DNA of 64,000 nt from Hasllibacter sp. MH4015 (GTDB lineage Bacteria > Pseudomonadota > Alphaproteobacteria > Rhodobacterales > Rhodobacteraceae): assembly GCF_020177575.1 (NCBI RefSeq), contig NZ_JAHTBK010000001.1:2930001-2994000 (forward strand). Direction: 5' to 3'. Positions 4,178 to 30,897 of the stretch are shown here, piece by piece. The position numbers and the translations under genes are program-made. Each line of letters opens with the position of its first letter. Position 1 is the stretch's first letter. The notes beneath the pieces were generated by a model, which was not told the DNA's origin, searched no databases, and was given only the letters and a program-made list of their open reading frames with translations.

Positions 4178-4945
4178 ATGAAGACCGCCATTGTCACCGG
4201 CGCCGCGCGTGGCATCGGCCTTGCCACCACCGACGAATTCCTGTCCCTCGGCTGGCGCGTGGCCATGGTGGATTGGGACGGGGATGAATTGGCCGCCGTC
4301 GCCGCAACCCGCAGGGACGTCCTTGCCCTGCCCCACGACATCTCCAACCCGCAGCAGGTGGCGGCGAGCGTGCGCGAAACGCTGGATACGTTCGGCCAGG
4401 TGAATGCGCTGGTCAACAATGCCGGCATCGCGGATTTCGGACCCATCGAGGAGACGGATTTCGAGCGTTGGCGGCGGGTGATGGCGGTCAATCTCGACGG
4501 GACCTTCCTGATGTCCCAGGCTGCCACACCCGCGCTGAAGGACACGCGCGGCGCGATCGTGAACATCGCCTCCATTTCCGGCCTTCGCGCCTCCACCCTT
4601 CGCGTGGCCTATGGCACGTCGAAAGCCGCCGTGATCGCGCTGACGCAGCAGCAGGCGGTGGAATTGGGGGAGCATGGGATCCGCTGCAACGCGGTCGCGC
4701 CCGGGCCGGTTCGCACGAAGCTCGCCATGGCGGTCCATACGCCCGATATCATCGCGGCCTACCACGATGCCCTGCCGCTTAACCGCTACGGGACAGAGGA
4801 TGAGCTTGCCCAGGCCATCGTGTTCCTGTGCTCGGACAAAGCAAGCTACATCACCGGGCAGTGCCTTGCGGTGGATGGCGGGTTCGAAGCGACGGGGATC
4901 GGGTTGCCTGCCTTGCGGGGCGGGGCCGAGGGTTATCAAGGTTGA
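4178..4945 (+). CDS. SDR-family NAD(P)-dependent oxidoreductase
   Basis: Classical short-chain dehydrogenase of 255 residues, the usual length. The Rossmann glycine motif TGAARGIG is at residues 7-14, NNAG near 80-83, a serine near 132-134 and the catalytic Tyr145-x3-Lys149. The C-terminus has the common YITGQCLAVDGGF segment. An acidic residue after the second strand (VDWDGD) suggests NAD over NADP, an inference only. The substrate cannot be read from the sequence. It appears to be transcribed alone. Confidence 0.88.
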   Translation: MKTAIVTGAARGIGLATTDEFLSLGWRVAMVDWDGDELAAVAATRRDVLALPHDISNPQQVAASVRETLDTFGQVNALVNNAGIADFGPIEETDFERWRRVMAVNLDGTFLMSQAATPALKDTRGAIVNIASISGLRASTLRVAYGTSKAAVIALTQQQAVELGEHGIRCNAVAPGPVRTKLAMAVHTPDIIAAYHDALPLNRYGTEDELAQAIVFLCSDKASYITGQCLAVDGGFEATGIGLPALRGGAEGYQG

Positions 4946-5876: not shown

Positions 5877-5906
5877 AAAACGCCCCGCCGGAAATCCGGC
5901 GGGGCG
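5877..5906 (-). terminator. Rho-independent terminator of clpB
   Basis: On the minus strand CGCCCCGCCGG (5906-5896) pairs perfectly with CCGGCGGGGCG (5891-5881) around a 4-nt loop and is followed by TTTT. It lies just after the clpB stop. Confidence 0.9.
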
Positions 5907-5934
5907 CTTCATAGTCTTGGTGGTCAGGCGCGCC

Positions 5935-8550
5935 TTAATGCACGACGGCATCGTCCGGTTTGGGCCGGTTGGACGCCGCCACACGGTCGCCCACGATCAA
6001 GCCATCGGCACCGGCGGAGACGCTGACCTCCGAGCCGTCGAAGACATCGCCGGACAGGATCATTTCCGCCAGCTGGTCCTGCAACGCCCGTTGGATCACC
6101 CGCTTGAGCGGCCGCGCGCCGAAGACCGGATCATAGCCTTCATCGGCGAGCCACGTCATCGCGCTGTCGTCGAGCGAGAGGTGGATCTTGCGATCCGCAA
6201 GACGCCGTTCCAACCGCTGCAACTGGATCTTCACGATGCCATCCATATCGTCCCGCGTCAGGCGGTCGAAGACGATCATGTCGTCCAGCCGGTTCAGGAA
6301 TTCCGGGCGGAAATGAGCGCGCACCGCGTCTATCACGTCTTTCTTCGCCTGCCCTGCATCCGTCCCTTCCGGCAGATGGCTGAGCGCCTGTGAGCCGAGG
6401 TTCGATGTCAGCACGATCAGCGTCTGCTTGAAGTCGACAACCCGCCCCTGCCCATCGGTCAGGCGACCGTCATCAAGCACCTGGAGGAGCACATTGAAGA
6501 CCTCCGGATGCGCCTTTTCGACCTCATCGAACAGGATCACCTGATAGGGGCGGCGGCGCACGGCCTCCGTCAGGACCCCGCCTTCGTCGTAGCCAACATA
6601 GCCCGGGGGCGCACCGATCAGGCGGGCGACCGCGTGCTTCTCCATAAACTCCGACATGTCGATGCGGACCATCGCCTGATCGTCGTCAAAGAGGTATTCG
6701 GCCAGCGCCTTGGTCAGCTCCGTCTTGCCGACGCCGGTCGGCCCGAGGAACAGGAAGCTGCCCAACGGCCGCCCCTCGTCCTGAAGACCTGCCCGCGCCC
6801 GGCGCACGGCCCGGCTGACGGCGGAGACGGCCTGTTGCTGGCCGATGACCCGTTTGCCAAGCTCCTCCTCCATGCGCAGCAGCTTCTCCCGCTCGCCTTC
6901 CAGCATCTTGGCCACTGGCACGCCGGTCCAGCGTTCGACAACTTCGGCGATCTGTTCGGGGCGCACGGCCTCTTCCACCATGACGTCCTCGTCCTGGCTT
7001 TCGGCGGCCTCAAGCTCCTTCTCAAGCTGCGGGATCACGCCATAGGACAACTCCCCGGCCTTGCCGAGATCGCCCCGGCGCTTGGCCTGGTCCAGTTCGG
7101 CGCGGGCCTGGTCCAGCCGCTCCTTGATCGTGCGCGCACTTTCCAGCTTGTCGCGTTCGGCCTGCCACTTGGCGGTCATCTCGGCGGATTGCTGTTGCAG
7201 GTCGCCAAGCTCCTTCTCCAGCTTCGCCAACCGGTCCTTGGAGGCGGCATCATCCTCCGCCTTCAGCGCCTCTGCCTCGATCTGCATCTGCAGGATCTGC
7301 CGGTCGAGTGCGTCCAGTTCCTCGGGTTTGGAATCGACCTCCATCCGCAGGCGCGACGCCGCTTCGTCCATCAGGTCGATGGCCTTGTCGGGCAGGAACC
7401 GGTCGGTGATGTAGCGATGGCTGAGCGTGGCCGCAGCGACCAGCGCGGAATCGGAAATCCGCACACCGTGGTGAAGCTCATACTTCTCCTTGATGCCGCG
7501 CAGGATGGATACCGTGTCCTCCACCGTGGGTTCTTCCACGACAAGGGGCTGGAACCGGCGGGCCAAAGCCGCGTCCTTCTCCACGTATTTCCGGTACTCA
7601 TCGAGCGTCGTGGCACCGACGCAGTGCAATTCCCCGCGCGCGAGGGCGGGCTTGATCAGGTTGGCGGCATCCATTGCGCCGTCGGTTTTGCCCGCGCCCA
7701 CAAGCGTGTGCATCTCGTCGATGAACAGGATGATTTCACCGGCGGCATTTGCGATTTCACCAAGGACGGCTTTCAGCCGTTCCTCGAACTCGCCGCGATA
7801 CTTCGCGCCCGCAATCAGCGCGCCCATGTCCAGCGACATCAGCGTCTTGTTGCGGAGCGATTCCGGCACGTCGCCGTTGATGATGCGCAGCGCAAGGCCC
7901 TCGGCAATCGCGGTTTTACCCACGCCCGGCTCCCCGATCAGGACAGGGTTGTTCTTGGTCCTACGGCTCAGCACCTGCATGGCGCGGCGGATTTCCTCAT
8001 CGCGGCCGATGATCGGGTCGATCTTGCCCTCGCGTGCTGCTTCCGTCAGGTCGCGGGCGTATTTGTTGAGCGCGTCGTAATTGTCCTCGGCCGACGCGCT
8101 GTCGGCGGTCTTGCCCTTGCGCAGATCGTTGATCGCGGCGTTGAGCGCCTGTGCGTTGACAGCACCGGCATCGAGCGCATCCTTGGCCTTGGATTTCACC
8201 ATGGCAAGCGCCGTCAGAAGGCGTTCGACGGCTACGAAACTGTCGCCAGCTTTCTGGGCCAGCTTCTCCGCCTCATCCAGAACCTTGGTCGTTTGCTTGT
8301 CGAGGTAGACCTGCGCGCCATCGCCCGTCACCTTCGGCAATTTCGACATGGCAAGATCAAGCGTCTCGCGCACCCGCTCCGGTGCGCCGCCTGCGCGGGT
8401 GATCAGCGTGGTGGCCAACCCCTGCTCGTCGTCCATGAGGGCCTTCAGAAGATGCTCGGGCACCAGTTTCTGGTGATCCTCGCGTTGCGCGATGGTCTGG
8501 GCGGCCTGAAGGAAGCCGCGCGCGCGATCCGTGAACTTCTCCAAGTTCAT
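5935..8550 (-). CDS. clpB: ATP-dependent disaggregase ClpB
   Basis: 871 residues, normal for ClpB. Order: Clp N-terminal repeats (about 1-145), AAA-1 with Walker [10 protein letters not shown], the long charged coiled-coil middle domain (about 400-520) that distinguishes ClpB from ClpA/ClpC, then AAA-2 with Walker [10 protein letters not shown] and the small C-terminal domain. It rescues aggregated proteins with DnaK/DnaJ in the cytoplasm. The ATG at 8550 follows AGGAGA with good spacing; six further upstream codons are not needed. A sigma32-type promoter lies about 75 nt upstream, so heat-shock induction is likely. Confidence 0.98.
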
Positions 8551-11245: not shown

Positions 11246-11437
11246 ATGTCGACCCAAGCCCTGAGTTTGCACCGCGTCGCTTATGATCCTGAAATGTCCG
11301 CCTTCCGTGCCGAGGCGCAGATCCTCGATGCCAGTGGCATCCACCGCCGCCCGATCCTGTGGCGCGGCCCCACCACGGCGGATTTCAAGCGCATCGCGCG
11401 CGGCCTGCGGGACGCGGCGCTTGGCGGCACCGCCTGA
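11246..11437 (+). CDS. Small hypothetical protein (63 aa)
   Basis: 63 residues, charged, no signal or membrane segment. The start ATG is preceded by GGAG at about 8 nt. The frame shows the strong third-position GC of real genes here, which supports coding. It precedes pyrF by about 60 bp on the same strand. No family recognised. Confidence 0.65.
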   Translation: MSTQALSLHRVAYDPEMSAFRAEAQILDASGIHRRPILWRGPTTADFKRIARGLRDAALGGTA

Positions 11438-11498
11438 CATGGACTTCCCCCGCCCGCGTCCCTAAACGAGGCGCGTGAGTTGAACCGGGGGAATGGCC

Positions 11499-12188
11499 AT
11501 GGCCGATGATCGTCTAATCGTGGCGCTTGATGTGCCAAACGTGGTCCAGGGCCTCGACCTGGCGGAGCGTCTGGGCGACAGTGTCAGCTTCTACAAGATC
11601 GGGCTCGGCATGTTGACGGGCGGCGGGCTGGCGCTGGCCAATGAGCTGAAGCAGGACCACGGCAAACGCATCTTCCTCGACATGAAGCTCTTCGATATCA
11701 GCGCCACGGTGGAGGCGGCGGTGCGCGGCCTCAGCCAGTTCAATCTCGATTTCCTGACCGTCCATGGCGATCCGCACGTGGTGCGTGCCGCGAAGGCAGG
11801 CGCTGCGGGATCGGACACGAAAATCCTCGCCGTGACCATTCTGACCTCGCTCGACCGCGCCGATCTCGACGCTTCGCTGATCCGCGACGGCGCGATCCCC
11901 GACCTGGTCGCCGAGCGCGCCAGCCGCGCGTTCGAGGCGGGGGCCGATGGCGTCATCGCCTCCCCCCAGGAAGCCGCGATGATCCGTGGATTGCCCGAGG
12001 CCGATGGACGCCTGATCGTCACCCCCGGCGTGCGCCCGACCGGCGCGGCGCTCGGCGACCAGAAACGCGTCTCCACCCCGCGCGAGGCGATCGCGGCCGG
12101 AGCCGACCACATCGTCGTGGGCCGCCCGATCTGGCAACACCAGGACCCGCGCGCCGCGGCTCAGATGGTGGTGTCGGAATTGCCATGA
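11499..12188 (+). CDS. pyrF: Orotidine 5'-phosphate decarboxylase
   Basis: Last step of de novo UMP synthesis: decarboxylation of OMP. 229 residues. LIVALDVPN opens the barrel; the catalytic DMKLFDISATV segment lies near residues 60-70; the phosphate-binding VTPGVRP and HIVVGRPIW are near the C-terminus. Of two close ATGs the one at 11499 has the better distance from GGGGGA. The C-terminus now ends SELP with a TGA overlapping the next start. A second copy of the gene's last 34 bp downstream still reads into SELPA and a stop, showing an insertion at the 3' end. Confidence 0.96.
   Translation: MADDRLIVALDVPNVVQGLDLAERLGDSVSFYKIGLGMLTGGGLALANELKQDHGKRIFLDMKLFDISATVEAAVRGLSQFNLDFLTVHGDPHVVRAAKAGAAGSDTKILAVTILTSLDRADLDASLIRDGAIPDLVAERASRAFEAGADGVIASPQEAAMIRGLPEADGRLIVTPGVRPTGAALGDQKRVSTPREAIAAGADHIVVGRPIWQHQDPRAAAQMVVSELP
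12151..12184 (+). repeat. 34-bp direct repeat, copy 1 (3' end of pyrF)
   Basis: Starts GCGCCGCGGCTCAGATGG and ends GGAATTGCC. Identical to 13036-13069, exactly 885 bp downstream. This copy is the functional end of pyrF. Confidence 0.95.
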
Positions 12189-13036
12189 GCCTTACTCTCA
12201 CGACCCTTCTGAGGGCCATGTACCCGGCATTCTCGCCGCTCCAGACGAAACTGCATCTGGCACAATGGAACGGGTTGGAGCACCCGCTGGAGGTGTTCGA
12301 GGCGGGAGATTTCGATGTCTGGCAAGCCGCTCAGACGGCCAGGAATTTCAACCGGGATTTTGTCGTTTCTCTGATCGCTACGCCTTCACCGGACACCTGG
12401 CTCTTCGCCGGCTGCTGGCATGTGGAGGGCGATCCGGATTTTGGCCCGGCGGACTATGACACGCTGGTAGGGCGCAACGGACCAGACACTTACAACTATA
12501 CGCTCACGCCGGTTGCGGCGACCGCCGATCTGTCGGGGCGATTGAACATCCGCTACATCAAGACCGCGCGCGCATCGTATCGCCTGTTTGAAACACTATC
12601 GGACCAATTGCTTGTCTCCTCCCTCATGGATGCTCCTCGCGGAACCCCGCGTTTCCGTGGCTATCGATCTGTCCGGCTAAAGTGGCGAACACTGCAGCGG
12701 ATCATAGCCGAGCGTCCCGACGATTGGAGGACGGCCTTGTCGTCTGTCGGGGGCGTCTACCTGATCGTGACCGCCGATGGTCATCAATATGTTGGTTCTG
12801 CCCACGGCGAAGAAGGTTTTTGGCGCAGGTGGTCCACCTATGTCGAGACCGGAGGCCATGGCGGAAACGTTGGGTTACAGGCATTGATGCGGGATCAGGC
12901 CGACGTTACCCAGTCGTTTCAATTCTCAATCCTCGAAACAGCAGATACGGGGGCGTCGCGTGAACACATCATCGCACGCGAAAGCCATTGGAAACACGTT
13001 CTGGGGTCGCGATCTACGGGATTGAACCTCAACTAG
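12185..13036 (+). CDS. Free-standing GIY-YIG nuclease-domain protein
   Basis: 283 residues. An N-terminal domain of about 185 residues is not recognised. The C-terminal GIY-YIG domain is complete: GVY (190-192), YVG (202-204), arginines 214/215 after the first helix, Glu266 in the metal-binding position and Asn281/283 near the end. All catalytic residues are present, so activity is plausible. The ATG overlaps the pyrF stop as ATGA, and the stop codon's last base is the first base of the second repeat. AT-richer codon use than its neighbours and flanking direct repeats point to acquisition. Alternatives are a homing-type endonuclease or a defence nuclease. Confidence 0.85.
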   Translation: MSLTLTTLLRAMYPAFSPLQTKLHLAQWNGLEHPLEVFEAGDFDVWQAAQTARNFNRDFVVSLIATPSPDTWLFAGCWHVEGDPDFGPADYDTLVGRNGPDTYNYTLTPVAATADLSGRLNIRYIKTARASYRLFETLSDQLLVSSLMDAPRGTPRFRGYRSVRLKWRTLQRIIAERPDDWRTALSSVGGVYLIVTADGHQYVGSAHGEEGFWRRWSTYVETGGHGGNVGLQALMRDQADVTQSFQFSILETADTGASREHIIARESHWKHVLGSRSTGLNLN

Positions 13037-13069
13037 CGCCGCGGCTCAGATGGTGGTGTCGGAATTGCC
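13036..13069 (+). repeat. 34-bp direct repeat, copy 2 (displaced pyrF tail)
   Basis: Exact copy of 12151-12184. In the pyrF frame it continues into GGCCTGA, giving SELPA and a stop: the presumed original end of pyrF. It also encodes the C-terminus of the convergent gene 13046-13912. Confidence 0.95.
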
Positions 13070-13912
13070 GGCCTGACCCTTTTCACGCGCCTTCTGCATC
13101 GCGCGTACCTCGGCCCGCGTGGGCGGAAGCGTCAGATCATCGAGCGTGTCGCAGTAGAATGCGAAGGAATTCGGCAGCCAGAACCGCGCCTCCAGGCTGC
13201 GGTGCTGGGTGGCGGCGAAACCCACGATGGGCGATTCCATATCGACCTCGTCGCGCCCCAGCGTCGGATGGGCCATGTCCATCATCAGGCAGGCCATGGC
13301 CGCGACACCCTCGGGCGTGGCCTCGAAGATGATCTGATCTGCCGCCGCCGGATCGAAGTCGACATGGTGGGCATCCGCCGCGCCCCAGCCATAGGCGAAA
13401 AAGGGGCGGTCCTGCGGATCGACCCTGTGGACGGGCGCCATGGCCCGATCCGCGAAAGGATGGCGCCAGACTTCCTGCGGCCAGTATTCGTACCCGGTGA
13501 ATTGCTGCGGTTTCTGGCCGAAAAGCTTGTGGTCACGCGGCATCGGGTGGTCGATACGGGTATAAAAGGTCCGGGCGCGGCTCGTCGGATGGGTCAGGGT
13601 CAGACCCGCCCATTCGCGGCCCGACAAAAGCAGATGCATCAGCCACAGCCCGAACCGGCGCATCCCCTCAGCCTCGGCATAGACCTCGAACCCGTGGCTG
13701 ACCCCGATCACCTCGAACGGCAGATCGTTGCCGGCGCTGTCACCGGCCCATCCCATGCTGCGCAGAAAGGCGGTGTCGATGACCATGCCACCGAATTCGG
13801 TAAGGTCGGCCAGCGCGTCCGGGAAATCCGCGGGCCGGAAGGTCAGGTCATCGTCCGGCCCAAGCGCCGCCACCTTCTCGGACAGCGGCGCATAGACCGA
13901 CAGATCAGTCAT
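13046..13912 (-). CDS. Conserved hypothetical protein convergent to pyrF
   Basis: 288 residues, soluble, aromatic- and histidine-rich, no signal. I do not recognise the family; no catalytic motif stands out. Its last eight codons lie in the second copy of the pyrF-tail repeat, so before the insertion it overlapped the pyrF 3' end tail-to-tail. It overlaps the NfeD gene by 8 nt at its start, making it the third gene of an SPFH-NfeD operon. Confidence 0.8.
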   Translation of the reverse strand: MTDLSVYAPLSEKVAALGPDDDLTFRPADFPDALADLTEFGGMVIDTAFLRSMGWAGDSAGNDLPFEVIGVSHGFEVYAEAEGMRRFGLWLMHLLLSGREWAGLTLTHPTSRARTFYTRIDHPMPRDHKLFGQKPQQFTGYEYWPQEVWRHPFADRAMAPVHRVDPQDRPFFAYGWGAADAHHVDFDPAAADQIIFEATPEGVAAMACLMMDMAHPTLGRDEVDMESPIVGFAATQHRSLEARFWLPNSFAFYCDTLDDLTLPPTRAEVRAMQKAREKGQAGNSDTTI

Positions 13913-29302: not shown

Positions 29303-29743
29303 TCAACTCTCCAAATTCGTCTCGATGACGGTCAGGCGCGCGCCCTCCCGGTCGATTTCCACCTCGATCAGCGGCTCGCGCCACGTGGTCGATTGCAGAA
29401 GCTGGATCGCCGGATCGGCGCTGTCGATGGGGCGGTAGCGTCCGCTGTCCAGCGCCGCGCGCACCCAATCGTCCACCTCCGTGCCGAAGGCCCCGTGGAT
29501 CGCGCAGAACTGGATCAGCGCCTCCGGGGTGGATTGGCTCAACCGCCACGCCCCCGCATCGGCCATCCACGTTTGGCTATCGGAATCCTCCGCCGTCAGG
29601 GTCAAACCGTCCGTATCGCTCGCCTCCACCGCTTCCATGGGCGTCAGACAGCGGGCCTCGAACTGCGCGAACGCATCCTCGATCTGGGCCGCGGCGGGAA
29701 ACGCCACGAACAGCGCCGCCGGGATGAGGCGCAGATCACGCAT
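29303..29743 (-). CDS. Secreted protein of the liv-embedded cassette (2)
   Basis: 146 residues. Its signal peptide (MRDLRLIPAALFVAFPAAAQ) is nearly identical to that of the next cassette gene, while the mature domain is unrelated by eye. Mature region acidic with two cysteines. It overlaps the upstream gene by 8 nt (ATGCGTGA). Function unknown. Confidence 0.75.
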   Translation of the reverse strand: MRDLRLIPAALFVAFPAAAQIEDAFAQFEARCLTPMEAVEASDTDGLTLTAEDSDSQTWMADAGAWRLSQSTPEALIQFCAIHGAFGTEVDDWVRAALDSGRYRPIDSADPAIQLLQSTTWREPLIEVEIDREGARLTVIETNLES

Positions 29744-29749
29744 CGCACG
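29684..29749. repeat. 66-bp direct repeat, copy A (signal-peptide region)
   Basis: 64 of 66 bases match 30309-30374. Covers the signal-peptide codons, start codon and 8-nt overlap junction of the gene at 29303-29743. Confidence 0.9.
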
Positions 29750-30368
29750 GCACCTCGCCCGGTTGGGTTGGTTCATCGTGGAATTCCACACTCTGCAATC
29801 CGAACCCCTCATAGGTGTTTACCGAAAGTCTCAGGGCCGTTCCGTCATTGCGGCACGCCAACAACCGCCCTCTCGCCGAAATCTGACCATGGCCGACATC
29901 GTAGTCCGTCACCTCGAACGGCTGAACGACCCGCCTGAATTCGTCCATAACCCCAATGATCCAATTGACGATGATCTGGCGGTTCTCTGATGCCACGGGC
30001 GTCAGCCAGACAAGGCAGCCTGCAATGCGGCGCGCATCCTCGGGCGTTTCGAACGGCGAAAACCTGGGGTCATGAGACACGATCAGCATCGTCTGAGACG
30101 GATCGCCATCGGCGTTCAGGTCGAAAAACGCATGCCTCAGATCGTCGTCGAAGCTCGCGCCACGATTCGTCTCCCGCGGGGTGCCGGTCACTTCGACAGG
30201 CGCCTCCAAAATGATCGCGGCATCGCGCAGCGCGACGGCATTGCTGCACAGGCGTATGCGCTCACCAACCAGATACATCTCGGGCGTGGCTTCAAACCTC
30301 GCGCTCTCCTGGGCCGCGGCGGGAAACGCCACGAACAGCGCCGCCAGGATGAGGCGCAGATCACCCAT
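29736..30368 (-). CDS. Secreted protein of the liv-embedded cassette (3)
   Basis: 210 residues. Signal peptide MGDLRLILAALFVAFPAAAQ; mature part contains FFDLNADGDPSQTMLIVSHD (calcium-loop-like DLNADGD) and a C-terminal CRNDGTALRLSVNTYEGFGLQ beta region. It starts at 30368, overlapping the preceding gene by 8 nt (ATGGGTGA). A longer upstream frame is a shadow of the preceding gene. Function unknown. Confidence 0.75.
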   Translation of the reverse strand: MGDLRLILAALFVAFPAAAQESARFEATPEMYLVGERIRLCSNAVALRDAAIILEAPVEVTGTPRETNRGASFDDDLRHAFFDLNADGDPSQTMLIVSHDPRFSPFETPEDARRIAGCLVWLTPVASENRQIIVNWIIGVMDEFRRVVQPFEVTDYDVGHGQISARGRLLACRNDGTALRLSVNTYEGFGLQSVEFHDEPTQPGEVPCDA

Positions 30369-30374
30369 CGCACG
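30309..30374. repeat. 66-bp direct repeat, copy B (signal-peptide region)
   Basis: Differs from 29684-29749 at two bases. Same relative position in the next cassette gene, so the two genes share a duplicated 5' module. Confidence 0.9.
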
Positions 30375-30897
30375 CCCCCGCGACGCCCAACGCGTCCTCC
30401 GTCCCCCATTCCAGCCGCACGGCCAGCCCCTCGCCCCCGTCAAGCGCGTAGGTGACGGAAAAGAGCCCGCTCGGCACGTCGCAGATCGCGTATCCCGACC
30501 CGACCAGCAGCGCCGTGCGCCCGGTCTCCAGAAGCCCGTCCATGTGATCGAAAAGCCGGGCGTAGTCATCGCCTTGGGTCACGGCACCCTGGCCGCCCAT
30601 GGCGCAGATGACCTCCCCGTCCTCCTGCGTCAATTCGACGGTCATGCCCGTGCCGTCCAGCCGATAGAGGTATTGGCCGGCCACCGCGAAGACCTGCACG
30701 TAATCGGGGTCGGCCTCGAAAGGCGTTGCGTCCGCGAAACCGCCCTCGGCCCAATCCATGCAATGCTGCGTCACCCGCAACAGCTCCGTGCCGGGGGCGG
30801 TTTGCGCATGGCCCGGTGCGCCCGCTGCAAGGAACATTGCCGTATATACCAAGGCTATACCGACCCTATACCGGTAATATACGCCGGTTTCAGTCAT
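30361..30897 (-). CDS. Secreted protein of the liv-embedded cassette (4)
   Basis: 178 residues. Overlaps livG by 8 nt (ATGACTGA). The N-terminus (TGVYYRYRVGIALVYTAMFL) is encoded by an array of TATACC repeats and ends in a signal-peptide-like APGHAQ. The mature domain has HCMDWAEGG and GMTVELTQEDGEVIC and parallels the cassette's first protein. Function unknown. Confidence 0.75.
   Translation of the reverse strand: MTETGVYYRYRVGIALVYTAMFLAAGAPGHAQTAPGTELLRVTQHCMDWAEGGFADATPFEADPDYVQVFAVAGQYLYRLDGTGMTVELTQEDGEVICAMGGQGAVTQGDDYARLFDHMDGLLETGRTALLVGSGYAICDVPSGLFSVTYALDGGEGLAVRLEWGTEDALGVAGACDG
30845..30883. repeat. Four TATAC(C/G) motifs spaced exactly 11 bp
   Basis: TATACC at 30845, 30856 and 30867 and TATACG at 30878. 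The 11-bp step equals one helical turn. It lies inside the first codons of the cassette gene just after livG. Confidence 0.8.

Follow-up and report, generated by a model that had tools for sequence, protein, structure and literature searches.

How a lone gene comes to stand between two exact copies of another gene's end is the question raised by a 64,000-nt stretch of DNA from Hasllibacter sp. MH4015 (Rhodobacteraceae; assembly GCF_020177575.1, contig NZ_JAHTBK010000001.1, positions 2,930,001 to 2,994,000 of the forward strand), the whole of which is referred to as the window. In the window, a uzuA-type gene, which encodes the single protein of the Uzume defence system, follows pyrF directly and is bracketed by direct repeats of the pyrF tail. 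A preliminary description of the locus had reported an exact 34-bp repeat with copies 885 bp apart, the first ending the present pyrF and the second running on in the pyrF frame to SELPA and a stop, and between them a single complete gene that is richer in AT than its surroundings and starts on the pyrF stop. Each of these statements was borne out by the analysis presented here, and the features of the locus are as follows.

11493..12188, plus strand: pyrF, orotidine 5'-phosphate decarboxylase (OMPdecase E 3.4e-49; PRK00230 E 1.8e-73; sequence), with its last residues from repeat copy 1 and its stop from the first bases of the insert
12151..12184, no strand: direct repeat copy 1, 34 nt, the present pyrF end (exact repeat; two genome copies)
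12185..13036, plus strand: uzuA-type gene, 283 amino acids, a complete open reading frame (ORF) whose ATG overlaps the pyrF stop (PADLOC UzuA E 3.3e-61; PHROG 26160 E 1.7e-53)
12185..12730, plus strand: N-terminal part of UzuA, residues 1-182, no sequence family, weak YTH/EVE fold likeness (AlphaFold2 predicted local distance difference test, pLDDT, 91.0; Foldseek, none at E <=0.001)
12752..13033, plus strand: GIY-YIG nuclease domain of UzuA, residues 190-283 (I-TevI profile match E 1.2e-9; invariant columns)
13036..13069, no strand: direct repeat copy 2, 34 nt, left over from the original pyrF tail and containing the last codons of the convergent ORF (exact repeat; joined flanks)
13070..13076, plus strand: remainder of the original pyrF tail, completing ...SELPA-stop (sequence)
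13046..13912, minus strand: convergent ORF, 288 amino acids, no Pfam or NCBIfam match, which shared 31 bp with the pyrF end as inferred for the original state (ORF list; joined flanks; homologues adjoin pyrF in relatives)

The two copies of the repeat are the only ones in the genome, even when up to three mismatches are allowed, and in a random 64-kb window of the same composition about 1e-10 exact direct repeats of 34 nt would be expected by chance. The insert between the copies is 851 nt long and consists of one ORF from ATG to stop; the uzuA-type ORF measures 852 nt, its final stop base being the first base of copy 2. At the start of the insert, the sequence ATGA supplies both the uzuA start codon and the pyrF stop codon. 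Copy 1 forms the end of the present pyrF, the ORF of which is matched by pyrF families, and copy 2 together with the next 7 nt reads ...SELPA-stop in the pyrF frame. The preliminary description had not mentioned that the last codons of the convergent ORF, too, lie in copy 2; when the flanks were joined in silico, pyrF ended in ...SELPA and overlapped this convergent gene by 31 bp. The composition of the insert is distinct, with a GC content of 58% in the uzuA gene vs 64% in the window, and with a GC content at third codon positions of 66% in uzuA vs 84% in pyrF and 81% in the convergent gene.

Terminal inverted repeats, as carried by DNA transposons and insertion sequences, were not above chance in the insert, as the best 20-mer match was 11/20 and at least 11 matches were obtained in 247 of 300 random window segments. 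No promoter or terminator match was obtained in 11400-13300 by a scan limited to the sigma-70 type. Nine phage-integrase-family matches (E <=1e-5) are present in the genome, none of them in the window and the nearest about 320 kb from the insert; the absence of an integrase reported earlier thus holds for the insert, which is a single ORF, and for integrases of this family in the window, other recombinase kinds not having been searched for. One other direct repeat of at least 24 nt within 6 kb was reported in the window (29684-29757 and 30309-30382; 74 nt, 93%), and it comprises the start and signal-peptide parts of two adjacent secreted-looking ORFs, the remainders of which look different.

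The state of the locus in relatives was examined in surveys of one genome per species, covering 13 genomes of the genus, 394 of the family, 292 of the order and 385 of the class. Within the genus, uzuA was found in 1 of 13 genomes (E <=1e-5) and pyrF in all 13. The comparison of pyrF-downstream regions that the preliminary description had proposed revealed empty sites in the genus relatives, a homologue of the convergent ORF coming right after pyrF in 7 of 12 (L003, L004, L006, L007, L008, L010 and L013). Other genes stand between the two in four relatives, namely a MarR-like gene and a second gene (L005, L011) or a membrane protein gene (L009, L014; names assigned by eye), and in L012 the convergent homologue is absent from the pyrF-downstream stretch examined. 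None of the 12 relatives carries a repeat of its own 34-nt pyrF tail within about 1.5 kb downstream, the best match being at most 23/34. In this sample of one genome per species, the gene was not found fixed without empty sites, nor was the repeat found in genomes lacking the gene, these being the two outcomes that had been named beforehand as speaking against an insertion. The pyrF tails of the relatives differ from that of the window at 5 to 15 of 34 positions, while the two copies in the window are identical, which indicates a recent duplication of the host species' own sequence. With the empty sites taken into account, uzuA at pyrF is best read as a recent gain of a single gene with target duplication. 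As a separate observation, the pyrF 3' end has gained or lost genes repeatedly among the relatives (L005, L009, L011, L014), without tail repeats.

The window protein is UzuA of the Uzume system, in which a GIY-YIG domain related to I-TevI stands behind an N-terminal domain. Two PADLOC UzuA models match it (E 3.3e-61, over residues 38-283 of 283, and E 3.5e-36), as does PHROG 26160 (E 1.7e-53), and scans with Pfam and NCBIfam returned no family above cut-off for it. The UzuA model was also matched by all rows of an alignment of 12 homologues that was used as a profile and of a second alignment of 16 rows. The 12-row profile matches the catalytic domain of I-TevI (E 1.2e-9), and the Pfam GIY-YIG family was found in 10 of its 12 rows (E <=0.1, best 7e-6), which do not include the window protein. 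Y192, Y202, R215, E266 and N281 are invariant over 37 aligned rows. In the HMMER alignment, R215 lies three residues off the I-TevI position of the catalytic arginine, which we take to be Arg27, and the register there is inferred. The GIY-YIG identity given in the preliminary description is upheld by the profile match and the invariant residues.

The AlphaFold2 model has a pLDDT of 91.5 for the whole protein and of 91.0 for residues 1-182 alone. A fold search with the whole protein returned nothing at E <=0.001, the UvrC GIY-YIG domain standing at rank 3 (E 0.068). Residues 1-182 belong to no sequence family, and a profile of the N-terminal part matches no solved structure by sequence. In Foldseek, 45 of the 50 listed rows for residues 1-182 are named YTH, mostly repeat entries of YTHDC1 and YTHDF2; the EVE-type 2p5d and THYN1 are also among the listed rows. 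From the predicted model, the N-terminal domain may tentatively be likened to the YTH/EVE readers of modified bases; the likeness is weak and unproven.

The relatives of the window protein are widespread. Its closest counterpart among the 49 other aligned rows is from Hahella (47% identity), and its nearest aligned relatives belong to other families. In the tree, it has no strongly supported partner within a group of 38 rows, which also holds five other rows of its own family in a separate clade, and it lies outside a 12-row clade that consists of its own family. UzuA relatives were found on 399 plasmid records and 3 phage records and span Proteobacteria, Clostridia, Planctomycetes and Archaea; a viral contig search with the single window protein gave no confirmed match. 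Among 5426 complete genomes of Escherichia coli, related uzuA genes were present only on plasmids, in 9 and 10 genomes with two queries. No constant partner gene was seen in ten plasmid or phage neighbourhoods (annotated names, by eye). From these sequence relationships, we infer that the uzuA gene of the window was acquired horizontally.

Whether duplication of a gene tail is a habit of UzuA was assessed on 139 loci, a convenience sample with some close kin, which comprised the best 80 of 384 confirmed contig matches, 19 viral loci, 11 plasmid or phage loci and 29 loci from genus to class, the window among them; L028, L034 and L045 were also scanned but are not counted. In 137 of the 139, all but the too short L149 and L158, direct repeats were scored up to 260 nt from the gene, with a threshold of 14, the highest shuffle maximum over all loci. 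Five loci exceeded it: the window (34/34), L062, L090, L041 and L105. Three of these were rejected or considered doubtful as target duplications, as the 109-bp repeat of L090 (Clostridia) is a dispersed repeat with 28 genome matches, the repeat around uzuA alone in the alphaproteobacterial L041 (70 nt, 68 alike) has 20 genome matches, 4 of them over at least 65 nt, and that of L105 (Verrucomicrobiales) is present in four copies within its locus. The L105 repeat, from a metagenome-assembled genome, is 75 nt long, and three of its four copies stand at or just before gene starts, including that of uzuA. Two further candidates were set aside: a 46-bp repeat at L035 (91%, copies 2116 bp apart) spans further ORFs, and a 15-nt repeat at L053 encloses uzuA and a neighbouring gene.

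At the remaining locus, L062 (Hahella), uzuA stands alone between 90-nt direct repeats of 81% identity (4801-4890 and 5877-5966). The first 22-24 nt of this repeat are a dispersed sequence of the repetitive extragenic palindromic type, and an explanation of the repeat as wholly dispersed holds for this part and not for the rest, since the other 68 nt (55 alike) occur at these two places only in their genome. L062 could be an older, second target duplication. The search for further UzuA genes beside duplicated tails, which the preliminary description had suggested, thus yielded this one possible, diverged case and none else that is clear among the 137 loci.

Pairs of replicons were compared as well. 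When the phage-plasmid pHCM2 (L160), which lacks uzuA, was compared with L053, which carries it, the two were found to differ at one gene junction, where about 1058 nt in L053 take the place of about 10 nt in pHCM2 and nothing is duplicated. A Klebsiella plasmid pair differs by replacement and not by clean insertion, and in a Pseudomonas plasmid pair uzuA is present on both. On an Acinetobacter plasmid (L058, 3005-4715), a 23-bp repeat, XerC/D-like by eye, encloses uzuA together with a toxin-antitoxin pair, an arrangement like that of pdif modules, and UzuA can accordingly ride modules served by host recombinases. pyrF was found at 0 of 138 other UzuA loci (flanks up to 1.5-5 kb). Altogether, the family as sampled follows no rule of duplication and shares no target gene at pyrF. 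Of the earlier proposal of a single-gene mobile unit that enters at gene tails, the one-gene insertion with duplication of the pyrF tail stands, and gene-tail entry as a rule does not (1 clear and 1 possible case in 137 loci). The suggestion that the nuclease itself fixes the site is not supported, given the phage-plasmid insertion without duplication and the absence of pyrF at the other loci. As an observation apart, an alphaproteobacterial genome of about 2 Mb (L047; G662:C165:4000-20000) carries two uzuA copies with repeated related neighbours, together with an intergenic TGTTTCGCGCGAAACA palindrome family resembling parS.

In several genera of Rhodobacteraceae, the ruvA-ruvB operon houses a member of a distant UzuA clade. 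In 9 of 12 family loci examined (L021, L022, L023, L026, L027, L030, L031, L032 and L033), a distant UzuA-type gene stands directly before a RuvB-like ORF. In 7 of these nine, the two genes overlap if the RuvB-like ORF begins at the start found by the script, and in 8 a RuvA-like ORF lies just upstream. The ruvA and ruvB names were assigned by eye except at L022, where NCBIfam gave ruvA above cut-off (2.6e-50) and RuvB for the first 120 residues (2.3e-49), the latter a partial match that does not reach the cut-off for the whole protein. Of the embedded proteins, three match a UzuA model (1.5e-52 to 3.6e-55) and receive the PADLOC label UzuA. Relatives of the L027 protein were found in 13 of 394 family genomes (E <=1e-30), not all of them in the ruvA-ruvB setting. 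This setting suggests a role of the embedded clade in repair or recombination.

The repeat, the ORF-exact boundaries of the insert, the absence of the gene and the empty sites in the sampled genus, the protein family and the conserved catalytic residues have to be accounted for together. It is considered reasonably probable, taken as one statement, that a horizontally acquired uzuA gene was recently inserted as a bare ORF at the overlap of pyrF and the convergent gene, with a 34-bp duplication, by break repair or illegitimate capture. A staggered or gapped break at the overlap would have been repaired, or illegitimate recombination would have taken place there, with capture of foreign uzuA DNA in the break and fill-in of the target sequence to either side. 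The insertion would have persisted because neither gene suffers from it once the target is duplicated, copy 1 restoring the end of pyrF and copy 2 keeping that of the convergent ORF. Since the two genes would have overlapped by 31 bp, an insertion without duplication would alter one gene end, and with it both are kept; a survivorship reading is thus possible, and the duplication may be what was kept and not what a site-specific enzyme dictates. The ATGA overlap would probably couple translation of uzuA to that of pyrF and so allow its expression. The protein likely serves to cleave phage DNA, perhaps recognising modified bases through its N-terminal domain, and a UzuA specific to modified bases would need no partner methylase, which would explain its settling alone.

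Several points weigh against this account. The insertion step left no diagnostic trace, and the 34-bp repeat equally fits an att-type duplication by an integrase acting in trans. Retention because both genes were spared is a guess; in the seven relatives measured, the ends of pyrF and the convergent gene abut (three, 2 bp apart), overlap by 4 bp (two) or have frames that run on by 415 and 598 bp (two). The recency of the insertion is read from a comparison of one genome per species. Phage defence by the window protein is a prediction, and the likeness of residues 1-182 to the YTH/EVE folds is weak, with no Foldseek match at E <=0.001, a best E of 0.03 and template modelling scores of at most 0.36.

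An insertion of the site-specific integrase type, in which the 34 bp are attL and attR cores at a gene 3' end and the recombinase acted in trans or was lost, is thought rather unlikely. A repeat of this length and a rebuilt gene tail are typical of integrase-type islands, so length and position fit; the nine integrase-family matches elsewhere in the genome could have acted in trans, and the repeat-bracketed module of the Acinetobacter plasmid places UzuA in a unit of the recombinase-served kind. The unit at pyrF, however, is a bare 851-bp ORF without an integrase gene, no second element repeats the pyrF tail in any of the 12 relatives, and the nearest integrase-family match lies some 320 kb away. 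A donor in which uzuA already followed pyrF would give exactly the observed order of parts by homology-facilitated illegitimate recombination, with homology in pyrF at one end and microhomology 34 bp upstream of the tail end at the other; this appears improbable, as pyrF stands at none of the other UzuA loci in the 139-locus set, and as the tails vary at 5-15 of 34 positions within the genus while the two copies do not differ at all, such that the donor would have to be of the same or a very near species.

Little weight is likewise given to a nuclease that mobilises itself, by which UzuA would nick or cut the pyrF tail and its gene be copied in, by a homing-like mechanism or one that yields long target duplications. 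The I-TevI-like catalytic domain, the lack of a constant partner gene in the ten plasmid and phage neighbourhoods, the broad spread across Bacteria and Archaea and the possible older case with 90-nt repeats in Hahella argue for it, but a repeat unique to its locus was seen in one clear and one possible case among 137, the phage-plasmid insertion occurred without duplication, and pyrF is not a target gene shared among the other loci. GIY-YIG enzymes of the I-TevI type also leave short staggers, so one cut would not yield a 34-bp duplication. If self-mobility were true, the UzuA ORF alone would be a minimal self-mobile, modification-sensing unit that enters tight gene junctions (the pyrF end here, ruvA-ruvB elsewhere) by nicking and duplicating its target, and that is retained free of partners since the host's unmodified DNA would be no substrate; this extended picture is doubtful to the same degree. 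Insertion as a bare ORF by break repair or illegitimate capture is the reading retained here.

Among known kinds, the closest is the insertion with long target duplication. Passages of PMC3874152 and PMC3031569, which cite Nobusato 2000 and Furuta 2010, describe restriction-modification systems that can insert with long, variable target duplications of about 100 bp, and single component genes of such systems that can appear mobile. Compared with the insertions described in those passages, the window locus is alike in having a nuclease or defence gene with no known mobile element, direct repeats of the target at its flanks and an empty allele in relatives, the target repeat standing at both ends of the insert and as a single copy at the empty sites. 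It differs in having one ORF, no methylase, a repeat of 34 bp vs about 100 bp and no flanking noncoding DNA, and in belonging to another defence system. The locus works like this kind of insertion; it is not a member, because the insert, with its one ORF, carries no restriction-modification gene set. The literature searched, mostly outside subscription journals, contained no description of a UzuA gene inserted with target duplication.

With regard to Uzume itself, the PADLOC model covers residues 38-283 and no family-level difference was seen; the genomic setting of the window gene is the unusual part. UzuA forms a single-gene system, and uzuA is the sole ORF of the insert. Uzume is said to have been first reported in Millman 2022. 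By sequence profile, no solved relative matches the nuclease domain better than the homing endonuclease I-TevI; however, the partner domain of I-TevI is C-terminal and that of UzuA N-terminal, and no intron or intein and no shared insertion site were seen for UzuA. The mechanism of Uzume is listed as unknown in the relevant passages of PMC10482375 and PMC12926258. Parts of PMC12923530 present CMoRE/PD-T4-3 as a GIY-YIG type IV modification-dependent restriction enzyme whose sensing domain is reported there to be without homologues; by that account it resembles UzuA as a single-gene defence that joins GIY-YIG to a second domain, but with the opposite domain order, and its structure stood at rank 39 (E 0.67) in the whole-protein fold search of the window UzuA. 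EVE-GIY-YIG fusions, as described in sections of PMC7641849, similarly join a proposed modified-base reader to GIY-YIG, whereas the YTH/EVE likeness of UzuA is below significance. A GIY-YIG gene has also been described in an Aeromonas integron cassette (PMC10609294).

The entry of lone defence genes into chromosomes without an integrase or transposase is poorly resolved. At pyrF, the event is so fresh that the two ends are still legible, as are the duplicated target and, in relatives, the empty allele, and the boundaries of the insert are those of the ORF itself. The locus offers a clean case of a defence gene that appears to have moved on its own, and concrete material for asking if the nuclease is involved and if precise excision by way of the 34-bp repeats is still possible. 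In addition, the UzuA database label also covers the clade embedded in ruvAB, a caution that a defence label may extend to proteins that possibly serve in housekeeping.

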